Shown here piece after piece: positions 9,998 to 26,491 of a stretch of 33,435 nucleotides of DNA. Source of the stretch: Clostridiales bacterium. GTDB lineage: Bacteria; Bacillota; Clostridia; Christensenellales; CAG-314. Below the pieces are notes generated by a model. It saw only the letters and a program-made list of their open reading frames with translations. It did no database searches and was not told where the DNA came from. The position numbers and the translations under genes were made by a program. Numbering within the stretch: the stretch's first letter is position 1; each line of letters begins with the position of its first letter. The stretch lies in the NCBI GenBank assembly GCA_022508325.1, contig JAFLVL010000009.1, positions 1 through 33,435 on the forward strand, given 5' to 3'.

Positions 9998-11896
9998 TTA
10001 TTTTAGTAGCTCGCCCAATCGGTCGTGGCAGGTGAAATACACCACCTGCGCGTGCGTAGATAGCTGTTTGAGCAAACGCGTTGCGCGTAAAAAATTGCTC
10101 TCGTCAAAGTTTACGAATGCGTCGTCGATAATTATGAATGGAATGTCGCCGTCGTAAAGCAATTCGGAGAGTGCCACGCGGAAACACAGTAGCGTTATTT
10201 CGCGTATTCCGCGGGAGAACGCGCTCATGTCCCGCGTCTGTCCCTCTTCGCGAATTCTGACGTTGAAGCTTCTGTCTATCACCACTGCGTAATCACTTTG
10301 GGTAATGCCCGACAGTAGCTCACTGCACCGCGATGTCAAACGAGGCAGATAGCTTGACGACAGGTTGTCCTTTGCCTCCGCAAGAAGCCTCGACACGGTG
10401 TCCGCAACCTCATATTCGAACTCCGCCTGTTTTCTCTGCTCCGCCACGTTCAACAGCTCGTCTTGAATGGAGACACTGTCGAACGTAAGCCCCTTTCGCT
10501 CCGTCGTCAGTTGCCCAACTTGCATAGAAAGCGCATTTAACCGCTCTGCTAGGTCGTTTAATGCGCGATTTATATCGTTTAACGCGTTTTCTGTCATTTG
10601 ACTGTCGGCGGACGGAGCTTTCATAACACTTCGTAGCGTGTCGCGCTCGCGTACGTCCTCACCGTACTTCTTGTACGCGTCCCACAGCCGCTGCTTCGCC
10701 GTGTCCAAATCCTCGCCGTCAACGTAAACGTATTTTCTGACAATGCCGAAATACTGCGCCAACAGCTCCTTCTGCTTGTTTTCCGCGTTAGTTGTATTGT
10801 GACGAGATTTACGCCAGAGTAAATAATCTACCACCAAACCAAAGACAGCAACTACGACGCCGCTGACGATCAAGGATATCCCCTCGTTAATGAAGCTTTG
10901 CGATACCACCCCCGTTATGCCGAGAATTGCCGCCACCACGCCGATAATAATGGGGATGGCATACCAAATCAAAGTCCACTTGCTGATTTTTTTTACGAAC
11001 TTTTCCTCTTTGAAATTGGCTAGTTCGTTAGCAATGCTCTCGCACCGCCCAACGTCGCGGTCAAACTCGGGCGGAATTCTGCGTATCTTCTCCTCAAGCT
11101 CGGCAAGGCGTTCTGCCGCGCGCTGTTCCTCGGGTGAAGCTTGACTTGCCGCCACCTCGCGCTGTAATTGCCTTTGCTTGACGGTATACTGTTCCTGTTG
11201 GTTGAGTAGCGTCTGCTTTTCCTGTTCAATCTCGTTAAGCGTATTCTCAATCTCTGCCGCGCGCCGTTCTGCTCGCTCCTCGTCGGCTTGCCTCTGCAAC
11301 AGCTCTCGCCGCTTGCAATCCAGCTCGTAGATTACGCCGCCATTGCCACGTTCGAAACGGTAGTTCTTTTTGTACGCGCGCAGCTTCTCTTGTATTTTGT
11401 CGTAATCATCCGCGCCGTTCTGAATGAGGTTACCAAGACGGTTGTCAAAGTTGTCGTTTGACGATAGCTCTACCGCCTCTTGCGGAAAATACGCCGAACG
11501 GTCGTAGCTGTCGGCAGTCAGACCCAACAAAAATTCCCCGGGCTGCAAGCCGCCTAAATCTATGGGCTTGCCTGTCTTGTCGTTGGTGACAGTCAAGGTT
11601 TCATTCTTCGCCGTTGCGCCGAAAAAGCGTTCAATGCGCAAAGTCTGCCCATCGTGTTCCACCGTCATGCTACCGCCAAATAGACCCGAACTCTGCCAAG
11701 GCGCAAATCGCGACGAGTCCTTCACTCCCCCTGCTGTTTTGTAGGTAAAGCCGTAGAGCATTGCACGAATAAAGCTCGCCATTGTGGTTTTGCCAAAGCC
11801 GTTGACATTCTGAATGACGTTTACGCCGTCTTTTAACGCGAGGTTGACGCCACTAAGCTTGCCGAAGGATTGGGCGTGAATACTGATTATCTTCAT
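9998..11896 (-). CDS. YhaN-like SMC/SbcC-type ATPase with internal transmembrane pair
   Basis: This 632-residue ATPase resembles YhaN/SbcC. The N-terminus has the Walker A site NVNGFGKTT at residues 30-38. The C-terminus has an FSRGIRE signature-like segment and the Walker B segment PFIIIDDAFVNFDE. Between them lie long coiled coils interrupted by two transmembrane helices at about 307-330 and 339-361, where SbcC would have its zinc hook. It is shorter than typical YhaN proteins (over 900 residues), because the coiled coils are short. The start overlaps the stop of the phosphoesterase gene as ATGA, so the two products are probably made together and form a nuclease-ATPase pair. The membrane helices suggest DNA handling at the membrane. 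DNA repair is the likely role, by analogy only. Confidence 0.85.
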   Translation of the reverse strand: MKIISIHAQSFGKLSGVNLALKDGVNVIQNVNGFGKTTMASFIRAMLYGFTYKTAGGVKDSSRFAPWQSSGLFGGSMTVEHDGQTLRIERFFGATAKNETLTVTNDKTGKPIDLGGLQPGEFLLGLTADSYDRSAYFPQEAVELSSNDNFDNRLGNLIQNGADDYDKIQEKLRAYKKNYRFERGNGGVIYELDCKRRELLQRQADEERAERRAAEIENTLNEIEQEKQTLLNQQEQYTVKQRQLQREVAASQASPEEQRAAERLAELEEKIRRIPPEFDRDVGRCESIANELANFKEEKFVKKISKWTLIWYAIPIIIGVVAAILGITGVVSQSFINEGISLIVSGVVVAVFGLVVDYLLWRKSRHNTTNAENKQKELLAQYFGIVRKYVYVDGEDLDTAKQRLWDAYKKYGEDVRERDTLRSVMKAPSADSQMTENALNDINRALNDLAERLNALSMQVGQLTTERKGLTFDSVSIQDELLNVAEQRKQAEFEYEVADTVSRLLAEAKDNLSSSYLPRLTSRCSELLSGITQSDYAVVIDRSFNVRIREEGQTRDMSAFSRGIREITLLCFRVALSELLYDGDIPFIIIDDAFVNFDESNFLRATRLLKQLSTHAQVVYFTCHDRLGELLK

Positions 11897-12930
11897 GCCT
11901 TCACCTCGCCGCTTAAATAAGTCAGTCCCATTTTCAGAACGGCTTCGCGTAGTCGCTCGTCCTCTATTTCGCCAGCCAGCTTGACGAATTCGCCGCGCAA
12001 TGACACCTCTTGAGAAAGCTTGTCGATGTCAATACTCAACACAGTTGCGTCCTTTATGCGCAATGCGAAAAATCTGCCGTCAAGTAGCTCTCTTGCCACC
12101 ATTTCGACGTGCAAATCCTCTCTTGCCTCACCTGTCAGTATAAGGTTCAGATAATTTCGCGGCGAAACCTCTGCTACAGCATTTTGAATTTTATTTTGCA
12201 GAGCAATGTCGCTTGTAACCCCGCTTATGTCTACGGTAACGGTTACAACCTTGCGCACCGCTTGCGTTACAAAATTTATTTTATCTGCATCGGTATCTAT
12301 TTCCACAAAACCGGTCTCTGCCGTCTCGTCAAAGCCACGCGCTTCGAGTACGCCACAGTAACAGCCTTTGACAGAACCGAACTTAAGCGGGCAAAAGGCG
12401 TGTCTGTGCCCCAACGCGACGTATTTGGCGCCACTTTGCGCAATAGATTTTTTGTCAATCAGTCCGTAGGCGGGGTCATCTACGTCGCCGTGCAACACCA
12501 ACACGTTATACGACGTCTTATCAAGCGATAAAGTCGCCCATTCTTCTTGGTCGTTTGTTCCAAGCTCGCGCCCACAGATTACGACGTTGCCGTGCTTATA
12601 TTTCGTCCAACTGTCGTCGAAAAAGTTGATTTCGGGGCAAAGTTTACGCAATTTTTCGTAAGCTTGAGCCCCACCGTGATTACCGCGCAAGACGAACCAA
12701 CTCGCTTTGCCACTCTTTACAATATCTGCAACGCTTCTGATCGTCTGCTCGGTGGTAAATTTCTCGTCAAATAGATCGCCCGCAACTATTATCGCCTCGA
12801 CGCCGTTGTTTGACGCGTACTCGTTTAAGTTTGATAGCGCCGTCAAAAGCTCGTGCCTACGCGTAGTCGAGTTGTTGACGCCCGCAAGCGGCGAATCTAA
12901 ATGTATATCTGCCGTGTGAATAATTTTCAT
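11893..12930 (-). CDS. YhaO/SbcD-like metallophosphoesterase
   Basis: This 345-residue protein is the nuclease-type partner of the downstream ATPase. SbcD/YhaO motifs are visible: HTADIHLDSPL at the N-terminus, VAGDLFDE near residue 48, LRGNHGG near 79, VLHGDVDD and LGHRHAF. GNHGG replaces the usual GNHD/GNHE, so one metal-ligand neighbour is changed. The C-terminal 120 residues form the capping domain. The gene begins eight bases after a TAGAAT box, so its mRNA is probably leaderless. Expected activity is Mn-dependent DNA end processing with the ATPase. Confidence 0.85.
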   Translation of the reverse strand: MKIIHTADIHLDSPLAGVNNSTTRRHELLTALSNLNEYASNNGVEAIIVAGDLFDEKFTTEQTIRSVADIVKSGKASWFVLRGNHGGAQAYEKLRKLCPEINFFDDSWTKYKHGNVVICGRELGTNDQEEWATLSLDKTSYNVLVLHGDVDDPAYGLIDKKSIAQSGAKYVALGHRHAFCPLKFGSVKGCYCGVLEARGFDETAETGFVEIDTDADKINFVTQAVRKVVTVTVDISGVTSDIALQNKIQNAVAEVSPRNYLNLILTGEAREDLHVEMVARELLDGRFFALRIKDATVLSIDIDKLSQEVSLRGEFVKLAGEIEDERLREAVLKMGLTYLSGEVKA

Positions 12931-13027: not shown

Positions 13028-13057
13028 AAAAACCCTATATCATTGCGATACAGGGTT
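13028..13057 (-). terminator. Terminator of the two-small-protein unit
   Basis: On the minus strand AACCCTGTATC and GATATAGGGTT form a stem around a five-base loop, with one mismatch, followed by TTTTATTATT. It lies 50 bases after the stop of the 39-residue gene. It separates this unit from the YhaO/YhaN operon on the same strand. Confidence 0.75.
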
Positions 13058-13105
13058 TAACTAAATATTTCTACAATTAGCAGGGCAATTCCACTAGAGC
13101 AATGG

Positions 13106-13225
13106 TTATTTGCCGATTTGCGAGCAAGCGCGCGTAAGACCTAATGCGAAAAGATATTCCATTTGCTCTTCGAAAACGTCGCATGTGTCTCTTTCTTCGT
13201 TTGTGTAATCTTCATATCTAAGCAT
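13106..13225 (-). CDS. Small acidic protein of 39 residues, paralogue of the neighbouring 37-residue protein
   Basis: This gene is too short for the ORF track, but its signals are strong: AGGAGG eight bases before the ATG, a TAA stop, and a terminator downstream. The product starts MLRYEDYTNEERDTCD and ends ALGLTRACSQIGK. It has nine acidic residues in its first 23 and cysteines at 15 and 34. Its C-terminus matches that of the 37-residue protein upstream (ALG, hydrophobic, three variable residues, hydrophobic/Cys, SQ, Ile/Leu), and both share a [YF]ED.Y motif near the N-terminus. I do not recognise the family. There is no transmembrane segment. A signalling, leader-core (RiPP-like) or regulatory role is possible, but no modifying enzyme lies beside it. 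Confidence 0.72.
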   Translation of the reverse strand: MLRYEDYTNEERDTCDVFEEQMEYLFALGLTRACSQIGK

Positions 13226-13377
13226 TTCGTCTACCTCCTAATTTTTCGAATTGATCTTCAATTTGTTTTTTATTAAATCAGCTTTTCAGCCGGAATTATT
13301 ACTTAAAGTGCAACTCTGTCGCTCTTGCGCTGACAATGCAGCTCCGAAAATTATATTAAGCGACAATTTCCGCACAT

Positions 13378-13426
13378 GAACCTAGTGACTCCACGGCAAT
13401 GGCGAACCTAGTGCCCCTGTGGCAAC
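13378..13426. repeat. Two tandem imperfect 26-base repeats in the small-protein leader region
   Basis: GAACCTAGTG...GGCAA occurs twice in a row, starting at 13378 and 13404, with variable bases between the conserved ends. The pair lies directly after the stop codon of the 37-residue gene and before the 39-residue gene, in the transcribed spacer. It could be a regulator or RNA-binding site. Confidence 0.45.
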
Positions 13427-13428
13427 AG

Positions 13429-13542
13429 TTAAGCGCTAAGTTGGCTCATCATCATAGCAACGCCAAGCGCAGCCAGACAATCGTCCTGCAAACTGTTACT
13501 TTGTTCAACGTTGTCGAATTTGTAATCATCTTCAAAATACAT
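13429..13542 (-). CDS. Small acidic protein of 37 residues, first gene of the two-small-protein unit
   Basis: The ATG at 13542 is preceded by AAGGAGG, and the frame ends in TAA at 13429. The product begins MYFEDDYKFDNVEQ and ends AALGVAMMMSQLSA. It carries seven acidic residues, one lysine and a single cysteine at position 22. The last 13 residues align without gaps to those of the 39-residue protein (ALG[LV]...[CM]SQ[IL]), so the two look like diverged duplicates. The C-terminal half is hydrophobic but too short to span a membrane. A promoter lies about 80 bases upstream, divergent from the AraC-type regulator. I do not recognise the family. Confidence 0.7.
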   Translation of the reverse strand: MYFEDDYKFDNVEQSNSLQDDCLAALGVAMMMSQLSA

Positions 13543-13619
13543 ATTAACTTACCTCCTTCTAATTATTCACAGATTTTTTTGTTTTACACCCATATTATAT
13601 TTGCTTTTTTGCAAAACGT

Positions 13620-13649
13620 ATTATATAATACTGTAAAATACTAACACAA
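13620..13649 (-). promoter_or_regulatory. Promoter of the two-small-protein unit, with a 14-base palindrome
   Basis: On the minus strand TTGTGT and TATAAT are 18 bases apart. The -10 box is embedded in the perfect palindrome GTATTATATAATAC (13618-13631), and ACAGTATT occurs twice between the boxes. The palindrome and repeats could bind a regulator. The leader would be about 70 bases long. Confidence 0.45.
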
Positions 13650-13749
13650 TACTGTCATTTAAGAGAAATTTTGCTTTTTCGCGGCAAAATTATTAAAAAA
13701 TTCACTCCACAATAAGCAAAATTACATAAATTATATAATAGGGAACAAC

Positions 13750-14682
13750 ATGCTGACGGATTTTCACGCAATAAACGAGAAAAATTACAATCAATACAAA
13801 GAAAAGACGGTGCACGGCACGCCCATGTTGCCTTTTGCCAAATACCATACGGAAATTTCCGGACTTTTGCCCTTCTATCCCATTCATTGGCATGAGGAAA
13901 TGGAGATTATCAAGGTACAGAGCGGCAAAGGGGTGTTTTACGTGGACGGTGGCAGGTACGAGGCGGAGGCAGGCGACATAATTATATTGCGCCCATTCGT
14001 CATGCACTCCATCAACCGCCTTGGCGAGAACGATATGACCATAGACGCGATTGTTTTTAATTTGCGACTGCTGGAAACGGAAGGAGCGGACGTTTGCACG
14101 CTGAAATACTTTGCGCCACTGCTGAACGAAAGACACTCGGTGCCCTGTATCGTGCGCTCAAGCGACAGCTGGTACCGTCCGTTTGACGAGAGCACCACAT
14201 CGATATTTTTGTGCAACCCCGACGAGGAGGGCGCTGAGCTGGATATTAAGGCGAATTTGTATTGGATGTTTTACCACATCTACAACAACCGCCTGATAAA
14301 CGCTCAGCCGAATATTGCCGAGGATAAGCGTTGCTATACCGTGAGACGCGCTCTCGAATATATTCGTGCCGAGTACATGAATGAGATAACCATCGAAAAG
14401 ATTGCCAAATATTGCGGTTACAGCGAGTTTTATCTGATGAAGCTGTTCAAACAGCACACGGGAGCCAGCATAGTGGACTACGTGAACAATTACCGTCTGA
14501 CCGTTGCCGGACGGCAACTGCGCGACACAGACGACGATATTGCCACTATCGCCTATCAGGTGGGCTACAACAACGTATCCTACTTCAACCGCCAATTCAA
14601 AAAACAATACGGCATGACCCCGAAAGAATTCCGCTCCTCGCCGGACAGGCGACCGGGTTCGCCTGCGAAGCCTACGGTTTGA
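13750..14682 (+). CDS. AraC-family transcriptional regulator with cupin sensor domain
   Basis: This 310-residue regulator has an N-terminal cupin domain of about 150 residues, with IHWHEEMEII and AGDIIILRPFVMHSI as its conserved strands. A C-terminal AraC double helix-turn-helix of about 100 residues contains IEKIAKYCGYSEFYLMKLFK and IAYQVGYNNVSYFNRQFKK. Such proteins usually sense a sugar or other small ligand. The ATG at 13750 has a weak GGGAA site, and a TATAAT box lies ten bases upstream (13734-13739) without a clear -35 box. It diverges from the two-small-protein unit, so it may control that unit. This is inference from position. No sugar operon lies next to it. Confidence 0.93.
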   Translation: MLTDFHAINEKNYNQYKEKTVHGTPMLPFAKYHTEISGLLPFYPIHWHEEMEIIKVQSGKGVFYVDGGRYEAEAGDIIILRPFVMHSINRLGENDMTIDAIVFNLRLLETEGADVCTLKYFAPLLNERHSVPCIVRSSDSWYRPFDESTTSIFLCNPDEEGAELDIKANLYWMFYHIYNNRLINAQPNIAEDKRCYTVRRALEYIRAEYMNEITIEKIAKYCGYSEFYLMKLFKQHTGASIVDYVNNYRLTVAGRQLRDTDDDIATIAYQVGYNNVSYFNRQFKKQYGMTPKEFRSSPDRRPGSPAKPTV

Positions 14683-14857: not shown

Positions 14858-14933
14858 GTTCCCGTGGCGCAATGGATAACGCAATCGCCTCCTAAGCGAT
14901 AGATTGGCTGTTCGAACCAGCTCGGGAACGCCA
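14858..14933 (+). tRNA. tRNA-Arg (anticodon CCT)
   Basis: A complete 76-base tRNA with encoded CCA. The acceptor stem is GTTCCCG/CGGGAAC, the D arm GCGCAATGGATAACGC, the anticodon arm ATCGC-CTCCTAA-GCGAT and the T loop TTCGAAC. The loop CTCCTAA gives anticodon CCT, reading AGG codons. A terminator follows immediately, and then the decayed accessory islet. Confidence 0.95.
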
Positions 14934-14934
14934 A

Positions 14935-14968
14935 AAAACGACCGATGAAAAATCGGTCGTTTTTCATT
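14935..14968 (+). terminator. Terminator after tRNA-Arg
   Basis: AAAACGACCGAT and ATCGGTCGTTTT form a perfect 12-base stem with a small A-rich loop, followed by T-rich sequence. It starts two bases after the tRNA CCA end. Confidence 0.88.
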
Positions 14969-15026
14969 TTATAATGATACATACGTCGCTTACAATAAAA
15001 TCTGACCTTCTCTATAAAGATCTGAT

Positions 15027-15063
15027 TGCGCATTTGATTGACGTCGTTGCAAGCGGCAAGAAA
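15027..15063 (+). repeat. Left copy of a direct repeat bracketing the decayed islet
   Basis: The core ATTTGATTGACGTCGTTGCAA recurs at 19140-19172 with T/G at one position and a 4-base gap before a shared CAAGAAA. The Rhs reading frame begins immediately after this copy. The two copies, about 4.1 kb apart in the same orientation, enclose all the broken genes, so they may mark the ends of an insertion. They could also be remnants of two homologous coding tails. Confidence 0.5.
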
Positions 15064-16672
15064 AAATTACGTATGGCCCGTCTAACGGAGTAATAAAACC
15101 GTTTTCAACCAGGACATTCCAATATGACAACTTACACAGAATTACTCGGGAAACCAATAATAGGTTGAGTATCTCGAAAATTTATAGCTACTATTCCGAC
15201 GGACGCTTGAAAAAAATAAGCGGCATAGGGAAGAATAGTGGTACTAAAAACTTCATTTATGATGCAAATGGCAGACTGATTTCGATTAACAGTTCCACCA
15301 CTTATGCTTACGACCATTTCGAAAACCGCATTTCCAAAACAGCAAACGGAGTAACTACTCGCTATACATTCGATATCGGTGGCAGATTGGTAGAAGCAAA
15401 CGGCGCAAAGTACAGCTATAATGCCGACGGAATCAGATACAAAAAGACGCTTGCCAACGGTGAAACTGTAAAAATGTATCTTGACGGCGGTAAGTTACTG
15501 GGCGAAGATAGAAGCGACTGCAAATTGCGCTATTTCTACGACGCAATGGGACTGAAAAGAATACGGAGAATCGAAGGCGACGGTGTGATTGACTACGAAT
15601 GAGTAAAAGACAATCAAGGTAGCATTATTATGCTTACGTCTGCTCATAGCGGTGTCGTATTTGCTCGCCATGAATATGATGCGCTTGGCAATTGCACTAT
15701 TCTTGAAAATATAGACGGCGTTGCAGAAAAGAATCCCTTCCGCTGGAAAGGTTTCTACTTCGACTCTGAAACAGGATTCTATTACGCAAACGGAAGCTAC
15801 TACGATCCTGAAACTGCTTTATACGTTGATGCCGCTCAAGTATCTACTGTAATAGACAATGCACTTTCTCCAAGGCACATTGACAGAAACGGCATGTTGT
15901 GCTACAATCCTCTTGCTCTTGCAGGCAGTCCATTTACCGCATTCCCAACAATGGAAATGGAAGCAGACGAAACGTATGATCCAGGGCAGACTTGGTGGGA
16001 TAATCTGTGGGAGAAATCATGTAACTGGTGGCAAAATATTCCTAAATGGATAAAATTTGGAATCGGCTTAGCAGTAATAGTAGGACTAGCTATTGCTACC
16101 ATAGCAACAGGTGGCGCATCAGGTGTCTTGTGGGGCGCAGTTTGTGCCGGCGCATTGAAAGGTGCTTTGATTGGAGCGACGTCTGGAGCTATTGTTTCCG
16201 GTACGATTGAAGGTTTAGTCTCCCTGAGCAATCATCAAAGATTTTGGGATGGTTTTGCTAACGGCGCAGCAGACAGATTTATGTTTGGTGCGATAACAGG
16301 AGCAATAACAGGTGCGATAGAAGGTGCAAATGGATGGTATAATGCGAAGGCAAGTTATCCTCCAAATAATGGAGCGGTTCCTGGCACCGAGCAAGAAATT
16401 GTATTGCAACCTGGAAAATATTCACGTTATGGAACAATAGGACCCAAAAGCGATTATATAACGGCTGCAGGGGCAAGTCCAAGCCAACTTTCATTGCCGC
16501 CATGGAATGATATAGGGGGTTAATAGAAATAACCGTACTTAAACCCATACCGAATGTTACTCAGTAAGTTGTTGCCCCATGGGTGCCGTGGCACGGTATA
16601 GGAGGGGGCATACAATATTTGTTGCCAGATCCGATTATAGTCTTGAGAGATTTAGGTTACTTAATATTTTAG
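15060..16672 (+). pseudogene. Rhs-repeat protein with C-terminal TNT-type NAD glycohydrolase toxin domain, broken
   Basis: This is the 3' part of a polymorphic-toxin gene. YD repeats (FQYDNLHRITRE, YDANGRLISI, YDHFENRISKT) lead into an Rhs core ending GFYYANGSYYDPETALYVDAA. A glycine/alanine-rich membrane-crossing segment follows, then a TNT toxin domain with VLQPGKYSRYGTIGP, SLPPW and, in another frame, TVLKPIPNVTQ and GIGGGIQYLLP. TNT enzymes hydrolyse NAD+ and kill cells; the Gln of the GGGIQY motif is conserved in the family. Three lesions break it: an in-frame TGA at 15600-15602, a one-base loss in the G run at 16515-16519, and a TAA at 16565-16567. The 5' bulk of a normal Rhs protein is absent. 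The toxin cannot be made whole from this sequence. Confidence 0.85.
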
Positions 16673-19172: not shown

Positions 19173-19211
19173 ACGGTTCTGCCTATTATATGGCGAACCG
19201 TTTCTTGTTGC
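19163..19211. terminator. 17-bp perfect inverted repeat at the 3' end of the surface-protein operon
   Basis: GCAACAAGAAACGGTTC (19163-19179) and its exact complement (19195-19211) enclose a 15-base loop. The right arm lies inside the last codons of the surface-protein gene. No T run follows on either strand, so it is a strong hairpin rather than a standard intrinsic terminator. It may stabilise the mRNA end or be a remnant of insertion. Confidence 0.5.
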
Positions 19212-21222
19212 ATATAAAATTGTCTGTTGCGTAAAGCTCTACGTCTTGCTCGAGTCTCAGTTCGGGGTCGGGCGTGTCTTCAATGGAGTCTAGCCAGCTG
19301 AGAGTGCCGAATTGGTAAGTAATCGAGTAGTACTTCGTCACGTCGTTGCCGTTTGCGTCCAATACCGTCGCAGTCACCGTGTTGGGCGCGGTGTCTTGGT
19401 CAGGTTGTAACGTTCCGGTAACTTTAAACTGCGCTGAATGCCCATTAAGCAGCGATCCAACCGAAATCCAAGCCAAATTGCTGCTTAGTGGCGTGCCGTT
19501 TCGCGCTTGCGCAACAGATATGCTTGTAACAGTCAAAGGACGGCGATTGACTGTCAACGGACTGCCTACAAATTCCACTGCGTTGGGGTCGTCTTGGTCA
19601 GCGAGTAAATCTCTGCCGTTGTTGTCCACTACCGTGACCTTACTCTGACTGCGCGCGGTAGCAAGAGACAGAACACCCGGTTCCGTGAGACTGCCGACGA
19701 GCGTCACTCTGACCCACGACGCGTCTACGCCGACAGGAACACTTTCCACGAACCAATCGGTAGCTTGATAGCTTAGTGGCGTGCCGTCGTAGAACTTGCT
19801 GAGCGCGTATACGCGAACTTTTATCGTAGGTTTGACGCGAATTTTGCCCCACTGTCCGCGCGGCAAGTAGTTTGCCGAGACGTCTCTGCCGTTGCCGTCC
19901 ACCACTGTGTAGGTCTGAACATTGTCAGCGTAGCCCACTTGATTTGATTTGTCTGTGACGTTTGTCACCCCTGCCGAAGCTGCCGCCGTCACTCTGTGTC
20001 CGTCCAATAACCCTTCGTTCAATCCGCTTGATGTCAAGACCTCGTATTGCAGATATTTGTGCCCAGTGCCGTCGTGAACGAATGTTTTGTCGCCTGTGCG
20101 CACGTCGAAAACGCGTTTAGTTACGGTCAATTTGCCGCAGATGTAGCTTAACGTGTAATTTGCGGTGACGTCTGTGCCGTGTTCGTCCGTAACCGCGAAG
20201 CTTTGCGGCTTATTGTCAACGCTACCTACGTCAACTATTGCCGTCCAAGCGCCAAAGGTAACGTTATGCCCATTTACTAGGTTGTCAAACGTGTGTCCCT
20301 CGGTGTGGCTGTGTGGCTGACCGTCGTATACCCAGCTGTCGCCAATGCTTGTGACGGTGATTTCGCGTTCAACGACTGTAAGCTCGCCCAAATCGAAACT
20401 TGCATGGTAGTGAACAGTAACGTCGTTGCTGTCCTCGTCGAAAATTCTATAACTTGTAACCTCGTTTTTTGCGCTGCCGACATCGGTAATAGATATAGTC
20501 ACCACATCTCTTAGGGTATGCCCATCCAGCAAGCCCTTTGCCGTAGCAGCATTTAACGCGTGAGGTTGTCCGTCATAGACCCAACTGTCGCCGTACGTGG
20601 TTATTTTGATTGAAATAGGATTACAAATTAACGTTTTAGCTTGTACCGTCACGTTGTAGTTGGCGGTAACGTCATTGCCATCGTTGTCAATTATCCTGAC
20701 GTCACCTTTGACAGGCGCAACATCTACCGTGTCCTGCGAATAGGCAAACTCAAACCCGCCGAAAATCAGTTTGTCGCCGTATTTAAGGTTGTCTGCGGCA
20801 ACATCTTGGGGAATGCTTCCGAAATCCAGCTCAAAATCGACCACTTTTAGCGTTAAATCTGCAGGAATAATGGCAAAAGTATGTATCTCGCCGTATCTTT
20901 CTTCACCTGAAAGCGTAAAAGACACAGCTTGCGCCTCGTAATTGCCTACGAATAGCGGTTCTTCATACGACCAAGCCCCGCCTACCGCTCTGTACCGAAA
21001 AGCGACGTTGCCGTAAAATGCTTTTGCCGAGATATTGGGTTTGTCGCCGTAGATTACGGTATCTTCACATTCTGAAAAGGTGACAGTTCCAACGAAATAC
21101 AGCAATACCGATGCGATAATAAGCAGTACGACTACTGCCAATATCAGATATCGCCATTTCCAAACGGCAAGAATACGCGCGTTGCGGCGGGCAAGCTTTT
21201 CTTGATACTCCTGATATAGCAT
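19186..21222 (-). CDS. Membrane-anchored surface protein with tandem MBG-like Ig-fold repeats
   Basis: This 678-residue protein has a short basic N-terminus, one transmembrane helix at about 25-45 and a long exported part built of repeats. Units of roughly 85-95 residues recur with two signatures: GDSWVYDGQPH at the start and DGNDVTANY...GKLTV near the end. This is the MBG/Ig-like pattern seen in Clostridia cell-surface proteins. There is no LPXTG anchor, and the helix keeps it in the membrane with the repeats outside. AGGAGGGG precedes the ATG at 21222. It is the last gene of the AAA+/DUF2357 operon, ten bases after the related upstream gene. Its last residues overlap an inverted repeat. Adhesion or envelope sensing is likely. 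Confidence 0.82.
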   Translation of the reverse strand: MLYQEYQEKLARRNARILAVWKWRYLILAVVVLLIIASVLLYFVGTVTFSECEDTVIYGDKPNISAKAFYGNVAFRYRAVGGAWSYEEPLFVGNYEAQAVSFTLSGEERYGEIHTFAIIPADLTLKVVDFELDFGSIPQDVAADNLKYGDKLIFGGFEFAYSQDTVDVAPVKGDVRIIDNDGNDVTANYNVTVQAKTLICNPISIKITTYGDSWVYDGQPHALNAATAKGLLDGHTLRDVVTISITDVGSAKNEVTSYRIFDEDSNDVTVHYHASFDLGELTVVEREITVTSIGDSWVYDGQPHSHTEGHTFDNLVNGHNVTFGAWTAIVDVGSVDNKPQSFAVTDEHGTDVTANYTLSYICGKLTVTKRVFDVRTGDKTFVHDGTGHKYLQYEVLTSSGLNEGLLDGHRVTAAASAGVTNVTDKSNQVGYADNVQTYTVVDGNGRDVSANYLPRGQWGKIRVKPTIKVRVYALSKFYDGTPLSYQATDWFVESVPVGVDASWVRVTLVGSLTEPGVLSLATARSQSKVTVVDNNGRDLLADQDDPNAVEFVGSPLTVNRRPLTVTSISVAQARNGTPLSSNLAWISVGSLLNGHSAQFKVTGTLQPDQDTAPNTVTATVLDANGNDVTKYYSITYQFGTLSWLDSIEDTPDPELRLEQDVELYATDNFICNKKRFAI

Positions 21223-21232
21223 CTTGCCCCTC

Positions 21233-22363
21233 CTACCTCAGCGTCAACGTGCCGAACACGAATGCGATAGAATAGTTTGCCGTAACGTCAACACCGTTGC
21301 GCATTATGCGCACTGTAGCCACATTTGCGCACGTGCCTCGCTCCGTCAATTGCGCTGTAAATTCTATTTTTATCTCGTCGCCCTGTAGCAATCCAATTTG
21401 CGTGTACTCGTGACACACGAGTGCGCTGCCGTTATAGACGGCTGTCAGCGAACCGGTCGTAATGGTCAGCTGCCTTTGCGTCATCGTCAGTGTGCCATAC
21501 TCCAACGTGATTTGGTAGCCATGAGTGATATCATTGCCGTCGCTGTCTAATATCTTCACCATGAAAGTATTGGCAATACTTCCAACCGTCTCGAGCGTTG
21601 CGAAAGAATAAACTTGGATTTTGTGTCCTTCAGGAAGAGAACCGTATAGAACATCGTAGCCCATATCGTAAAGAGGAGCACCGTCGTATTCTTTTGACGC
21701 GCTGGCGCTACGTACCGTCAGCTGTTGCATATCACACGCCGAACACCTGCCCGATTGGTCAAAAACGTGCTCGCCGGTAGGCTTTAACTCTCGCGTTTCA
21801 CGAACTAAGTGGCATTGTACACACGTACGATACTCCCATCCCGATCTGCCACAGGTGGGGTCTGCCGTACGCTGCCACTCGTCTTCATAGACGTGCTCGC
21901 CTGTTGCCGGTATTGTGCTCATCACGACGAATTTGCACTTGTCGCACCGGCGCAAGGCTACGCCAGGCGACATGCACGTGGCAGCTATATAAGTTTCCCA
22001 ATCGCCAAATCTATGCGTGCAAGTCACCGAACCCCAGTCGAAATCGTCGGGGAGGTCGTCCCAGGGTATGTCTTCCCAAGGATAGTTATCGGGTAATTCT
22101 TCCCAAGGGACGTCTTCCCATGGGACCTTTTCCCACGGCATATCATCGGGTAGTTGATCCCAAGGTACTTCGTCGTAGGGGAAATCATCGGGAAAGTCCT
22201 GCCAGGGAATCTTGTCCCAAGGCACATCGTTTGGCAAATCAAAGCGCGGTTTTTCGGGAGACTCGCCTTTGGCTTGCACAAGACTGTATGTAAGCGCGCA
22301 CATTAGCAAAAGTACAAATACTACCAACGCGCCTAATATGTAGACAAATTTAGATTTTCTCAT
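21233..22363 (-). CDS. Membrane-anchored surface protein with Pro-Trp-Asp repeat stalk, cysteine motifs and MBG-like repeats
   Basis: The protein has 376 residues. An N-terminal helix (about 6-28) anchors it. Residues 44-110 are a striking low-complexity tract of 14-residue units, such as DFPYDEVPWDQLPD, almost wholly Pro, Trp, Asp and Glu. Two cysteine modules follow (CTHRFGDW...RRCDKC and PTCGRSGWEYRTCVQC, then CSAC), a C-x2-C pattern common in Clostridia surface proteins, possibly metal-binding. Two MBG-like repeats end the chain. The ORF-track start at 22375 is a TTG; the ATG at 22363 has GAGG six bases upstream and is preferred. The acidic stalk could bind calcium or space the domains from the membrane. 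It lies in the operon directly after the second AAA+ gene. Confidence 0.8.
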   Translation of the reverse strand: MRKSKFVYILGALVVFVLLLMCALTYSLVQAKGESPEKPRFDLPNDVPWDKIPWQDFPDDFPYDEVPWDQLPDDMPWEKVPWEDVPWEELPDNYPWEDIPWDDLPDDFDWGSVTCTHRFGDWETYIAATCMSPGVALRRCDKCKFVVMSTIPATGEHVYEDEWQRTADPTCGRSGWEYRTCVQCHLVRETRELKPTGEHVFDQSGRCSACDMQQLTVRSASASKEYDGAPLYDMGYDVLYGSLPEGHKIQVYSFATLETVGSIANTFMVKILDSDGNDITHGYQITLEYGTLTMTQRQLTITTGSLTAVYNGSALVCHEYTQIGLLQGDEIKIEFTAQLTERGTCANVATVRIMRNGVDVTANYSIAFVFGTLTLR

Positions 22364-22371
22364 ACCTCGCC

Positions 22372-23763
22372 TCAATCCGACGTTATACTGTCAAGATAGC
22401 GTCTGCATTGCGAATCTTCGCCGAAGGTGTTGACGATAAAGCTCTTGAGCTGATCTATTTCGCCACGCAATCTCGACAGATCTCTGTATTCCAATTTGCG
22501 GAGAACTTTCTTGGCAAGAATGTCGTCAATGGCCTCCAATTCGCTGCCGCCGCAAGCGACATACACCGCTACGTAGTCTCCTATCTGACGGCGAATACGG
22601 TTGCCGTAGGTCATTTGAAACTTGTCCGTCAAGAACGCATCGAATGCCGTAATATCTGCCTGAAATTGCGCACCGGGACGGTAGTCCTTGATAGCCTGAG
22701 CTACCATTTCTTGAAATTTGGTGTAGCTGAGCGCGACGGTCGCCGACTCTTCTACCTCAAACGGTTGCGCTTTGCCGCCCAAATCTACAATCATTGCACG
22801 ATCATATACCTTGTCTGAGATGGGGTACGCCGAGTCGTCATCGTTGACTGTGCCTACAAACCACATGCTTTCGGGCAGCTTGAGGCAACCGTTGACAATG
22901 CCTTCGGGGTCGTTTGCCCACGCGTCGGATGCCGCTTCAAGATACCGTAGTTCGGGATTGGGCAGCTCCATAAGTGACAAAAACTCCGCAAAGTAATACT
23001 CAATCCGCGCGATATTCATTTCGTCTAACACGGTGATATACATGCGGTCGCCGAAATTCGCCTCGTATATCTTTCTGAACAGCGTCGTTTCGTTGAAATG
23101 TTTGGTAAATTCGTTGTAGTAGCCGAGCAGGTCAGCACGCTCCTTCCACATGGGTTGCACGGGTATAATAGTCGAGGAATTGTTAACAAATTCGCCGAAT
23201 GCGTAAGCCAGCGACGTTTTGCCCGAACCCGAGACGCCTGTGAGTATAAGCATGTGCGACGCGCCCAAAGATGCGACAAACTTGCGTACATCCTGCTCGG
23301 AAAAATACAGCTTGAGCTTATCTGCGGCAAAATTGCGAAAATCGGCACATAATTGACTGAGACTGCTTACTTCCTTGCCTTCTGCCACCGTTTTTCCCTG
23401 TGTCAAAGGGCTGAAACGGCTGGGAAGAGTCTGATTTTGATGGGCGACAAAGTCGGCTCTTTCCGCATCTATTGCCTGTTTCAAACCGTCCTCTAACGTC
23501 CAGGTAACTTTGTTTATCTTGCGTCCCCTGGCAACGGTAAATATCAGGAACACAATCAAAAGGATAGGCAGAGCAAATCCCCAAAATACTATCAGGGCGC
23601 TATTGTAGCTGTAGGTAATGTAGATAAAAAACGTTTCAAGATAGGGAACGAGTGTGCCCGCGATGCCATAATATATGAGCGTGATAATTCCTGTTCCACC
23701 AAGCAGCAGAACGAGAGCAAGCAACACTATCAAAAACCATGTATGATTTCGTCTTTTCTTCAT
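22372..23763 (-). CDS. Membrane-anchored McrB-like AAA+ ATPase, second copy
   Basis: The protein has 463 residues. Two transmembrane helices (about 9-31 and 55-78) precede a linker and an AAA+ module. Walker A is GVSGSGKT at 176-183 and Walker B is ITVLDE ending at Asp247-Glu248, followed by MNIARIEYYFAEFLSLME. The sensor region GTVNDDDS and ISDKVYDR come next. This is the McrB/AAA_5 branch. It is a close paralogue of the product at 25208-26491: PVQPMWKER.DLLGYYNEFTK and the C-terminal VYVACGG.E..A.DDIL.KKVLRKLE are shared. No EVE or other DNA-binding domain is present. Its start overlaps the DUF2357-like gene stop as ATGA. It probably forms a hexamer, perhaps mixed, at the membrane. Confidence 0.85.
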   Translation of the reverse strand: MKKRRNHTWFLIVLLALVLLLGGTGIITLIYYGIAGTLVPYLETFFIYITYSYNSALIVFWGFALPILLIVFLIFTVARGRKINKVTWTLEDGLKQAIDAERADFVAHQNQTLPSRFSPLTQGKTVAEGKEVSSLSQLCADFRNFAADKLKLYFSEQDVRKFVASLGASHMLILTGVSGSGKTSLAYAFGEFVNNSSTIIPVQPMWKERADLLGYYNEFTKHFNETTLFRKIYEANFGDRMYITVLDEMNIARIEYYFAEFLSLMELPNPELRYLEAASDAWANDPEGIVNGCLKLPESMWFVGTVNDDDSAYPISDKVYDRAMIVDLGGKAQPFEVEESATVALSYTKFQEMVAQAIKDYRPGAQFQADITAFDAFLTDKFQMTYGNRIRRQIGDYVAVYVACGGSELEAIDDILAKKVLRKLEYRDLSRLRGEIDQLKSFIVNTFGEDSQCRRYLDSITSD

Positions 23764-25199
23764 TGTTTGTCACCGTTATCTTTGGATTTTCCAAAAATCT
23801 GTTTTTTGAGGTCGTCGCGCGCTTGATTGCGTATATTTGCTTTGGCACTTTTCCACTTCTTTTTGACAATTCTGCCCAGCGCGTTGTACAGACCTTCCAA
23901 TTCGTCAAATTCCTTCTTTGTCGGCGTCTTTTTGTCGGTAGCCAAAACGGCAAGCTGTGCCTTCAATAGCAAATTCTCCTCTTGCAATTTGTTTTGCACC
24001 GTTTCAAATTCCGTAATTGTGTTTTGGAGCAAAATTTTACTTTGCGCAAGCCTGTCGGAATATCCGCTGATTGCCTCGGCGCATTTTTGCAAAATCGATT
24101 GCTTTTCTGCAAGGACAGACTGTAATTGCTCTTGTGTTTGCTCCGTCTGTTGGATTTGAACGCTCAGCGTCTGTTTTAATTGCTCTATTTGTGGCTCGGC
24201 GGCGTCCAAAAGCTCGCTTCTTTGCTGTAAGACAAGCAGATAGGCGCCATCACCCTCTGCAAAACGCCTTTTGAGCTGTTCGAGCTGTTCGCGACGTTCT
24301 TTTTCGCACTCACTCGCCAATCCGTCGGATAGCTCCAGCGCGTTGACGTAGTCGGAAAAGGAGAGCAGTAGGCACAACGCCTCAACATCCTCCGACACCT
24401 CCAGCGTCTGCGTGGAATATTCTACGCTGTAACCGTCTCCCTCGTAAGAAAGCAGGTAGTCGTATAAAGCAACCGCTAACTTGAAGTTTTTGTCCATCTT
24501 GAGCACGTTATTCTTGGTGATTACGGTTTGCACCATATCCACCTTAGACAGCTCGACCATGAGGGGAGTGGACAGATAAAAGTCTACAGTACGCAAAATA
24601 TTCGCCAAACGCTCTGCCGCGTCGCAAAGGGAGAGCAAATAGTCGTCGTTTTGCCGCTCGTCCAGTAAATCAATGGCAATATTCAGCTTGCGAACGCCAA
24701 AATCCAGCTGCAAATTGGCGTCCAGCTTGCCAGAAAAGCTACTCGTAGCCTTTGCAATAGGCTCGTACCTCGCGGACACGAAGCTCTTGACCGTAGTAAG
24801 CAAACGGTACAAAAACCTATTTTCGTAGGTGGCGTAGTCATTGAGTCGCTCCACCGTGTACAGCTTGTCGGGTACGATATTGTCATCGAAGTTGGTCTCG
24901 CGTGAGATAAACTCGCCGTGGCGGGCAAGATGCTGAATCGACTCCTTGGAAATGCGCTTGACCTTCTCTATGGGTTGCACCTCTCCTTCGGAACGTATAA
25001 ACCGACGTTCTTCATCGATGGCTTTCCCGACGAAGTCAAGTCCCCGCTCTATTGCTACAATCCACTTGTCATCAACGGTGCATTTGGCGTAACTGACATT
25101 GAGAGTCGCAGAGCCTTCTTTTGTAAGCTCCCTGTAGCCGTCGCCCACTGCCTGACGGAGTGACTGTAAAATTTTGTAAAGATTAGTTTGCTCGGACAT
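23760..25199 (-). CDS. DUF2357-like coiled-coil partner of the McrB-like ATPases
   Basis: The protein has 479 residues. The N-terminal half is globular and contains DYATYENRFLYRLL at about 121-134. This ENRF motif resembles the DUF2357 domain that precedes the nuclease in McrC-like proteins. The C-terminal third is a long coiled coil rich in Gln, Glu and Leu, and the tail is basic. No PD-(D/E)xK nuclease motif is visible. I chose the ATG at 25199 (MSEQTNLYKIL), which has AGGAG upstream, over 25247. It lies exactly between the two AAA+ genes, so it is most likely the adaptor or regulator of that motor, in the place McrC holds beside McrB. The DUF2357 assignment is from pattern only. Confidence 0.65.
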   Translation of the reverse strand: MSEQTNLYKILQSLRQAVGDGYRELTKEGSATLNVSYAKCTVDDKWIVAIERGLDFVGKAIDEERRFIRSEGEVQPIEKVKRISKESIQHLARHGEFISRETNFDDNIVPDKLYTVERLNDYATYENRFLYRLLTTVKSFVSARYEPIAKATSSFSGKLDANLQLDFGVRKLNIAIDLLDERQNDDYLLSLCDAAERLANILRTVDFYLSTPLMVELSKVDMVQTVITKNNVLKMDKNFKLAVALYDYLLSYEGDGYSVEYSTQTLEVSEDVEALCLLLSFSDYVNALELSDGLASECEKERREQLEQLKRRFAEGDGAYLLVLQQRSELLDAAEPQIEQLKQTLSVQIQQTEQTQEQLQSVLAEKQSILQKCAEAISGYSDRLAQSKILLQNTITEFETVQNKLQEENLLLKAQLAVLATDKKTPTKKEFDELEGLYNALGRIVKKKWKSAKANIRNQARDDLKKQIFGKSKDNGDKQ

Positions 25200-25207
25200 A
25201 GTTACTC

Positions 25208-26491
25208 CTAACTGTTGCGAGCAAGGGCGCGAATGTAGTTGACGCAATGCGTCATCGTACCTTTGCCAAAGCAGTCCTCAATAAACTGTATCAGCTCGTC
25301 GGCATCCTTCTTGCGATAGGCAATATTTTGCATTTCCAGCTTGCGAAGTACCTTTTTGGTGAGAATGTCATCTAACGCCTTCTCTTCATTGCCGCCGCAC
25401 GCCACATATACGGGCAGGTAGCTCTTTATTTGCTTCATCACGCGGTTGCCGAAGGATATGCGAAAATGCTTTTGCAGGTATTCATCAAGTTTGTTGAGTC
25501 TGTCGGAAGAAGCTTTTGAAATGGAATTTATCTTGAGTACCTCTGCCACTTTGTCGTTGAAAGCCTGCGCAGAGATGGGCATTGTGCCAAATTTTGCCGC
25601 TTCAAAAGGTTCTGCTTTGTGGTCTAACTGAATTATCATCGTGCGGTCGTAGACCTTGTCGGAGATGGCAAACGTGCTGTCGTCGTTATTTGCCGTGCCC
25701 AAAAACCACATATTTTCCGGCAATTTGATACTGCCGTTTTTGAGGTCCTTGGGGTCGGAGCTCCATTTGTCGGTGATAATGTCAAGATACCGCAACTCGG
25801 GGTTGGGAATCTCCATTAGCGAAAGAAATTCCGCAAAGTAGTACTCTACGCGCGCAATGTTTAGCTCGTCCAAAATGGTGACAAACATCGCTTGACTTTT
25901 ATTTGCCTCATACATTTTCGATAGCAAAGGCGTCTCGTTGAAACGCTTGGTGAATTCGTTGTAGTAGCCGAGTAGGTCGGATCTTTCCTTCCACATAGGC
26001 TGTACCGGAATAACGGTAGAGGGATTATTCAGAAATTCGCCAAAGGCAAACGCCAACGAAGTTTTGCCGGTACCCGACATGCCCTGCAAAATAATGAAAT
26101 GGGACACAGCCAGACCGCTCACAAAAGCGCGAATAGTATCGCGGTCGTAGTATAATCCAAGCTTTCCCGCGGCGTAGTTGCGGAACTCCTCGCACAGTTC
26201 GCTTAGCGTAAAATTGTCTACAAATTGTTCTTTTGGCGCCTTATTCCAACGCTCGTCGATGGACTTCAACATCTCAAAACGCGAGCTTGAGACCTCAGCT
26301 TGTTCGCTTGCTTTGTTCGCGCTCGATTTGAGTTGCTTGTTGACGCTGTTGAGTCTGCGTTCGTTTATTATAGCGGCAATGACGATCAACCCCATCAATA
26401 CCACCATGACAGCCATGTACATAATGACGAATTCCGGGGTTTTGATAAAATTCCATATTTGAGCCAAGGTTATGCTGAATAAATTTCTCAT
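25208..26491 (-). CDS. Membrane-anchored McrB-like AAA+ ATPase, first copy
   Basis: The protein has 427 residues. One transmembrane helix (about 22-42) is followed by a charged linker and the AAA+ module. Walker A is GMSGTGKT at 137-144. Walker B is TILDE (Asp208-Glu209), followed by LNIARVEYYFAEFLSLME, then GTANNDDS and ISDKVYDR. The sequence is strongly similar to the second copy throughout the ATPase part; they differ in the membrane segment and linker. This points to an old duplication and a hetero-oligomer. It is the second gene of the operon, 28 bases after the seven-helix protein and eight bases before the DUF2357-like start codon. Confidence 0.87.
   Translation of the reverse strand: MRNLFSITLAQIWNFIKTPEFVIMYMAVMVVLMGLIVIAAIINERRLNSVNKQLKSSANKASEQAEVSSSRFEMLKSIDERWNKAPKEQFVDNFTLSELCEEFRNYAAGKLGLYYDRDTIRAFVSGLAVSHFIILQGMSGTGKTSLAFAFGEFLNNPSTVIPVQPMWKERSDLLGYYNEFTKRFNETPLLSKMYEANKSQAMFVTILDELNIARVEYYFAEFLSLMEIPNPELRYLDIITDKWSSDPKDLKNGSIKLPENMWFLGTANNDDSTFAISDKVYDRTMIIQLDHKAEPFEAAKFGTMPISAQAFNDKVAEVLKINSISKASSDRLNKLDEYLQKHFRISFGNRVMKQIKSYLPVYVACGGNEEKALDDILTKKVLRKLEMQNIAYRKKDADELIQFIEDCFGKGTMTHCVNYIRALARNS

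Follow-up and report, generated by a model that had tools for sequence, protein, structure and literature searches.

Introduction

Proteins of the ANR (AraC Negative Regulator) family, 39-80 aa in length and helical, modulate activators of the AraC/XylS type (PMC4038620, PMC5570504). They are predicted to have three helices and a highly conserved Cys (PMC4038620); an example is Aar/Orf60 of enteroaggregative E. coli (PMC4038620, PMC5570504, PMC10148876). The products of the two genes analyzed here, designated A and B, are likewise small, predicted to be helical and encoded under or near an AraC/XylS-type activator, and a protein-protein contact is proposed for them as well. However, the ANR proteins are known from Gram-negative pathogens, while A and B come from uncultured Clostridia of the gut, and B has one predicted helix and no invariant Cys, compared to the three helices and the highly conserved Cys of ANR. 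The search with the ANR_neg_reg model (NF033650) against the 25 genomes of the genus gave no match at the A/B locus and none over the cut-off anywhere. Given this result, and given the differences in the number of helices and in the conservation of Cys, membership of A/B in the ANR family was rejected.

The proteins SgrT and SR1P, of about 40 aa, are intracellular, are produced under metabolic control and act on a protein partner; they are encoded by dual-function RNAs. Compared by description, A and B differ: they are a pair of paralogous mRNA genes, their promoter is conserved as DNA and no conserved RNA was seen. The locus also resembles those of AraC/XylS factors with divergent targets, as the regulator combines a cupin/AraC_binding domain with HTH_18 and the promoter has no -35 box. 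On the other hand, the usual target of such a factor is a catabolic operon, whereas here two orphan small proteins would take its place.

Standard gene finders overlook proteins shorter than about 50 residues, and a function is known for few of them. A and B give unusually good handles: there are 15 orthologues, the two genes are paralogues, the promoter is sharply delimited and the regulator is always the same, so that both binding and partner become testable.

Layout of the locus

The window, i.e., the whole stretch of 33,435 nt that was analyzed, carries A and B on the minus strand, divergent from the gene of an AraC-type regulator (araC). The features of the locus are as follows.

13429-13542, minus strand: gene A, 37 aa (37 codons), MYFEDDYKFDNVEQSNSLQDDCLAALGVAMMMSQLSA; ORF with AGGAGG, directly 3' of the conserved promoter
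13106-13225, minus strand: gene B, 39 aa (39 codons), MLRYEDYTNEERDTCDVFEEQMEYLFALGLTRACSQIGK; ORF with AGGAGG, orthologues and profile match
13552-13557, minus strand: ribosome binding site of A, perfect AGGAGG, spacer 9 nt; read from sequence
13234-13239, minus strand: ribosome binding site of B, perfect AGGAGG, spacer 8 nt; read from sequence
13030-13058, minus strand: intrinsic terminator 3' of B, 13 pairs followed by a T-run; strict terminators in 9 of 15 species
13594-13599, minus strand: -10 box TATAAT of the A-B unit; cross-species alignment
13620-13657, minus strand: operator-like conserved element, M1 then M2; gap-free in 15 species, 33 bits and E=2.4e-9 in the window
13642-13657, minus strand: M1 palindrome, TGACAGTATTGTGTTA; part of the operator-like element
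13621-13636, minus strand: M2, TTACAGTATTATATAA, consensus TTGCAAGATATTGCAA; part of the operator-like element
13750-14682, plus strand: divergent AraC-type regulator, AraC_binding/cupin and HTH_18; Pfam
11893-12930, minus strand: sbcD-like nuclease gene downstream of B, a separate unit; Pfam Metallophos
12967-12939, minus strand: promoter-like site of sbcD, TTGAAA-17-TAGAAT; promoter scan

The initial annotation had described two ORFs of 37 and 39 codons, each preceded by AGGAGG, in a unit bounded by a promoter and an intrinsic terminator and divergent from an AraC-type regulator. All of this was upheld: both ORFs with their AGGAGG sites are present, the terminator lies where listed above, the promoter is gap-free across the 15 species, and the order of araC on one side and A-B on the other, read away from each other, is conserved. 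The AraC type of the regulator is confirmed by its Pfam domains (PF12833 at 8.9e-25, PF00165 at 3.6e-22 and PF02311 at 8.3e-12). Downstream of A-B, on the strand shared with them, sbcD and then sbcC follow; the unit ends with B and the terminator, and a separate promoter-like site precedes sbcD. We regard it as confirmed, at the level of comparative sequence analysis, that A and B are real genes under selection and make up one transcription unit of two small acidic paralogues.

Gene B: distribution and selection

Orthologues of B were found by the profile search in 15 of the 25 genomes of the genus, always adjoining the same araC; most of the relatives come from rabbit gut samples. Of 956 segments of the window, a profile built without it recovered the one with B at E=1.4e-23, which makes B certain. 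A search with a single query found B homologues in relatives down to E=9e-12. For the B of G006, the E-value was 1.4e-5 with the profile lacking the G006 row and 2e-16 once this row was included. Homologues bearing the C-terminal motif, on which the initial annotation had staked its proposal, are thus present in 15 genomes. The further copies that it had suggested to look for upstream of other AraC genes were not found, with one locus per genome.

The A/B family was absent from the rest of the 396 genomes of the order, where two matches at E=0.007 sit inside larger ORFs, and none of its members were found in plasmids. Comparisons with Pfam, NCBIfam, PHROGs, PADLOC and PDB produced chance-level matches only; for 13 B proteins and two A proteins, the number of NCBIfam matches was zero. 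By these searches, A/B is a new orphan family of small proteins of one genus, with a putative function only.

The pooled pN/pS across species in the true frame was 0.50 for B and 0.61 for A, even with the synonymous sites near saturation, compared to 1.08-1.44 in the other two frames. For the closest B pairs, pN was about 0.18 and pS varied from 0.43 to 0.57. The differences at codon positions 1/2/3 numbered 1478/1143/2292 in B and 949/734/1215 in A, an excess at the third position in both; the codon-position bias, which had been named earlier as a property to look for, is clear in the cross-species data. Selection on the protein had been claimed from the divergence of the two DNA sequences alone. 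This argument is invalid, although its conclusion is borne out by the cross-species pN/pS.

Gene A and its paralogy with B

A accompanies B in 11 of the 15 B-bearing genomes. It is located upstream of B in ten genomes, the window included, and downstream of B in G021, while in four genomes (G004, G011, G020 and G024) A is missing and B stands alone. The A-B spacers, with lengths varying from 37 to 348 nt across species, share no obvious sequence.

The profiles of A and B aligned by hhalign with a probability of 93.7% over the C-terminal 25 residues. The B profile ranked four A proteins above all 2,104 shuffled sequences and, conversely, the A profile ranked seven B proteins above all 2,957 shuffled sequences. 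The helix common to A and B has the pattern [E/Q]Q..Y[IL]FALG...[AC]..[NQ][EQ][IL]GK. By these profile comparisons, A and B are paralogues. The initial annotation had aligned the two products at both ends, and here the two ends have to be separated. The C-terminal helix end is conserved in the family; the [YF]ED.Y start is loose (YEDYT in B) and not conserved, and the N-terminal likeness of A and B reflects acidic composition more than a motif.

The A of the window scored 5.0 bits only against the A profile from which it was left out. Against an A+B profile lacking this sequence, it reached 9.2 bits (E=0.057), ranking second among 956 segments, with p=0.0014 in comparison with its own shuffles. 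We identify it as A by this rank and p value together with its place behind the conserved promoter; judged by its sequence, it is a weak, fast-evolving and divergent copy, identified mainly by position. One could ask if it is a decayed relic, with B alone functional in this species, as the low score against the A profile and the four related species without A would allow. Still, its frame is intact, it has the AGGAGG and the promoter directly upstream, it differs from its shuffles and it keeps the helix motif ALG..AMMMSQLS, which makes the relic quite unlikely.

Linkage to araC and sbcCD

B and a strong araC orthologue always occur together: 15 genomes have both and ten have neither. In the Ppx tree, the genomes bearing araC and B form essentially one clade; therefore, the co-occurrence counts as one clade-level event rather than 15. 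The joint loss of araC and A/B in G013, the one apparent exception, was rejected as independent evidence: sbcD is missing from this assembly too, and an assembly gap is the probable cause. The tree of the AraC proteins was too poorly resolved for dating gain and loss of A.

More distant AraC-type genes divergent to sbcD occur without A/B in G003, G016, G017, G018 and G023, which shows that the regulator does not need A/B in general. The neighbours of A/B in the species examined were araC, sbcD/sbcC or a convergent aldo/keto reductase gene. In G022 (locus L068), sbcD is no longer downstream of B, while araC-A-B and the promoter are kept; thus, A/B belong with araC rather than with sbcCD.

In G010 (locus L134), the slot between araC and sbcD behind M1 holds a phosphatase-like gene of 265 aa, named from its sequence.

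Promoter, operator-like element and terminators

About 65 nt located 5' of the first small gene aligned without gaps in 15 of 15 genomes. The consensus in these genomes is AAAACAGTATTGTGTTAGTTTTTTGCAAGATATTGCAATCT..TTTT........CAATATAAT....GCGTAAA, and the order of the elements is the TAACA-N6-TGTTA palindrome (M1), TTGCAAGATATTGCAA (M2) and TATAAT. M2 has the form TTGCAA-N4-TTGCAA, which can be read both as a direct repeat at 10-bp spacing and as an inverted repeat. No -35 hexamer was found at the usual distance, with at most three of six matches in any of the 15 species. Promoters without a -35 box are expected of activator-dependent control. The lack of this box combined with the fixed geometry argues for an activator, and the sequence pattern points to control of the A-B promoter most simply by the adjacent AraC.

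In the motif search, the module of M2 and the -10 box was found strongly at essentially the A/B locus only. The matches of the operator model in lon promoters were judged to be due to chance, with TTGCAA serving as the -35 box. In G021 (locus L061), a separate, diverged copy of the element precedes the second small gene, which indicates that promoter and small gene travel together.

Strict intrinsic terminators were present 3' of the last small gene in 9 of the 15 species, where shuffled sequences gave an expectation of 0.73. The terminators of these species are unrelated in sequence; therefore, it is the function of the terminator that is kept and not the sequence. The shared strand and the position of the terminator between B and sbcD might suggest a leader or attenuator of sbcCD, in which the small ORFs are read to control the downstream terminator. 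However, sbcD has a promoter-like sequence of its own, and G022 keeps A/B with their promoter where no sbcD follows. Moreover, terminators and spacers vary freely while the proteins, with pN/pS below 1, do not, and Rfam gave no match except tRNA-Arg. We find an attenuator hardly credible.

M1 and M2 sites elsewhere in the genus

The search with the M1+M2 model revealed a second full site in seven genomes, all of which hold the araC orthologue. In six of the seven, the site precedes an AAC(3)-like acetyltransferase gene by ~125 nt (loci L126 and L128-L132; genomes G005, G002, G012, G020, G004 and G009). At L127 (G019), the M1+M2 element is present and the acetyltransferase gene is absent. The copies of this gene are 90-93% identical to the G005 copy, and the gene is absent from all ten genomes without this araC. 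Its product scored 198.7 bits, under the NCBIfam cut-off of 270, so that resistance is not implied. A conserved small gene was sought on the plus side of the AAC(3) sites and not found.

M1 without M2 is seen genus-wide, before ppx/gppA in nearly all genomes and before malQ or pfk in some. Such sites occur also in genomes without this araC orthologue, which suggests that a factor shared across the genus reads M1. M2 would then be a better candidate than M1 for the site of AraC. Furthermore, genomes without A/B also have M1 and an AraC-type gene at the araC/sbcD locus, which marks the locus as an older regulatory site; A/B are an example of small genes appearing at such a site.

The palindrome AAAATAACA-N6-TGTTATTTT precedes ppx/gppA as a conserved feature of the genus (L133, L139-L145, L148-L150, L152-L155, L157-L159, L163 and L164), and is a probable site of a genus-wide regulator. 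The palindrome is also located upstream of malQ in L136, L156 and L160, and upstream of pfk in L146 and L151.

Protein features and possible function

For B, AlphaFold2 predicted a helix at residues 14-36 with high confidence and an acidic start with low confidence (mean pLDDT 81); for A, it predicted one long helix with lower confidence (71). The model thus predicts for B a disordered acidic start followed by a single helix in the C-terminal part. The net charge of the A/B members varies from -6 to 0 and is negative in nearly all. The N-terminal half is acidic and polar in nearly all of them, a composition that speaks against a signal sequence, and the number of Cys residues varies from 0 to 4 across species.

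Peptide signalling, a RiPP precursor or a regulatory protein had been proposed initially. The small size, the tandem paralogous genes, the strong ribosome sites and the adjacent regulator would suit exported signalling peptides or RiPP precursors. However, we saw by eye no secretion signal, GG-type leader or cleavage motif in any member, and the variable Cys count leaves no invariant modification site. In the species examined, the conserved neighbourhood (araC, sbcCD) holds no gene for modification, protease or export, and what is conserved is a helix ending in IGK rather than a variable core. Peptides of these two kinds are therefore very unlikely, and an intracellular regulatory protein remains as the most plausible class.

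Two small tandem genes might also bring to mind a toxin-antitoxin pair, or phage-derived or defence proteins. Such an origin is highly improbable given that A and B are homologous to each other and neither strongly hydrophobic nor basic, that B occurs alone in four genomes, that the chromosomal position is fixed and that PHROGs and PADLOC gave no match of note.

Our preferred, though tentative, reading is that A and B are clade-specific small intracellular paralogues controlled by AraC, with a helix that docks on a protein partner, likeliest the regulator or its circuit. Both would be made as one short transcript from the activator-dependent promoter. Once its cupin sensor is occupied, the AraC protein would bind the conserved element, most likely at the M2 direct/inverted repeat beside the -10 box, and switch on A/B. 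The acidic N-terminus would be flexible, and the C-terminal helix, EEQxxYxxALgLxxAcxQIGK, would dock on the partner. The likeliest partner may be the AraC regulator or another part of its circuit, with feedback damping of the ANR kind; next would come a metabolic enzyme or RNase, as for SgrT/SR1P. Compared to AraC itself, an enzyme or RNase is only slightly less likely as the target.

Alternatively, A and B could be induced by AraC in response to a small molecule and modulate a metabolic enzyme, a transporter or an RNase post-translationally, with no feedback on AraC. The AraC gene encodes a cupin sensor as seen from Pfam, and AraC regulators with such a sensor are typical of sugar or metabolite control. 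M1, which adjoins the A/B operator, is found in the genus at pfk, malQ and ppx/gppA as well, and the size and predicted single-helix form suit a docking peptide. Still, the locus has no linked target gene, and the sole other gene with a full M1+M2 site is the AAC(3)-like acetyltransferase gene; we consider modulators without feedback rather unlikely.

A more specific form of our preferred reading is that the pair arose in the araC-sbcD gap of one clade and, in the form of homo- or hetero-oligomers, sets the output of the adjacent AraC by direct contact; it would be an ANR-like device of independent origin in Gram-positives. We hold this for unlikely as a whole. If A/B do feed back on AraC, dedicated small protein partners would have been acquired by AraC-type regulators more than once.

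Other features of the window

At 14858-16523, a tRNA-Arg (CCT) gene is followed by fragments of RHS-repeat genes, an arrangement suggestive of an integrated or decaying RHS element. At 22372-26491, a DUF2357 gene lies between two similar AAA_5 ATPase genes in a McrB-like arrangement, possibly a duplicated NTPase/nuclease system. The region 19186-22375 encodes two long proteins of surface type, in which 'NYxxxxxxGxLTVxxR' units are repeated; judged by eye, these repeats are MBG-like.
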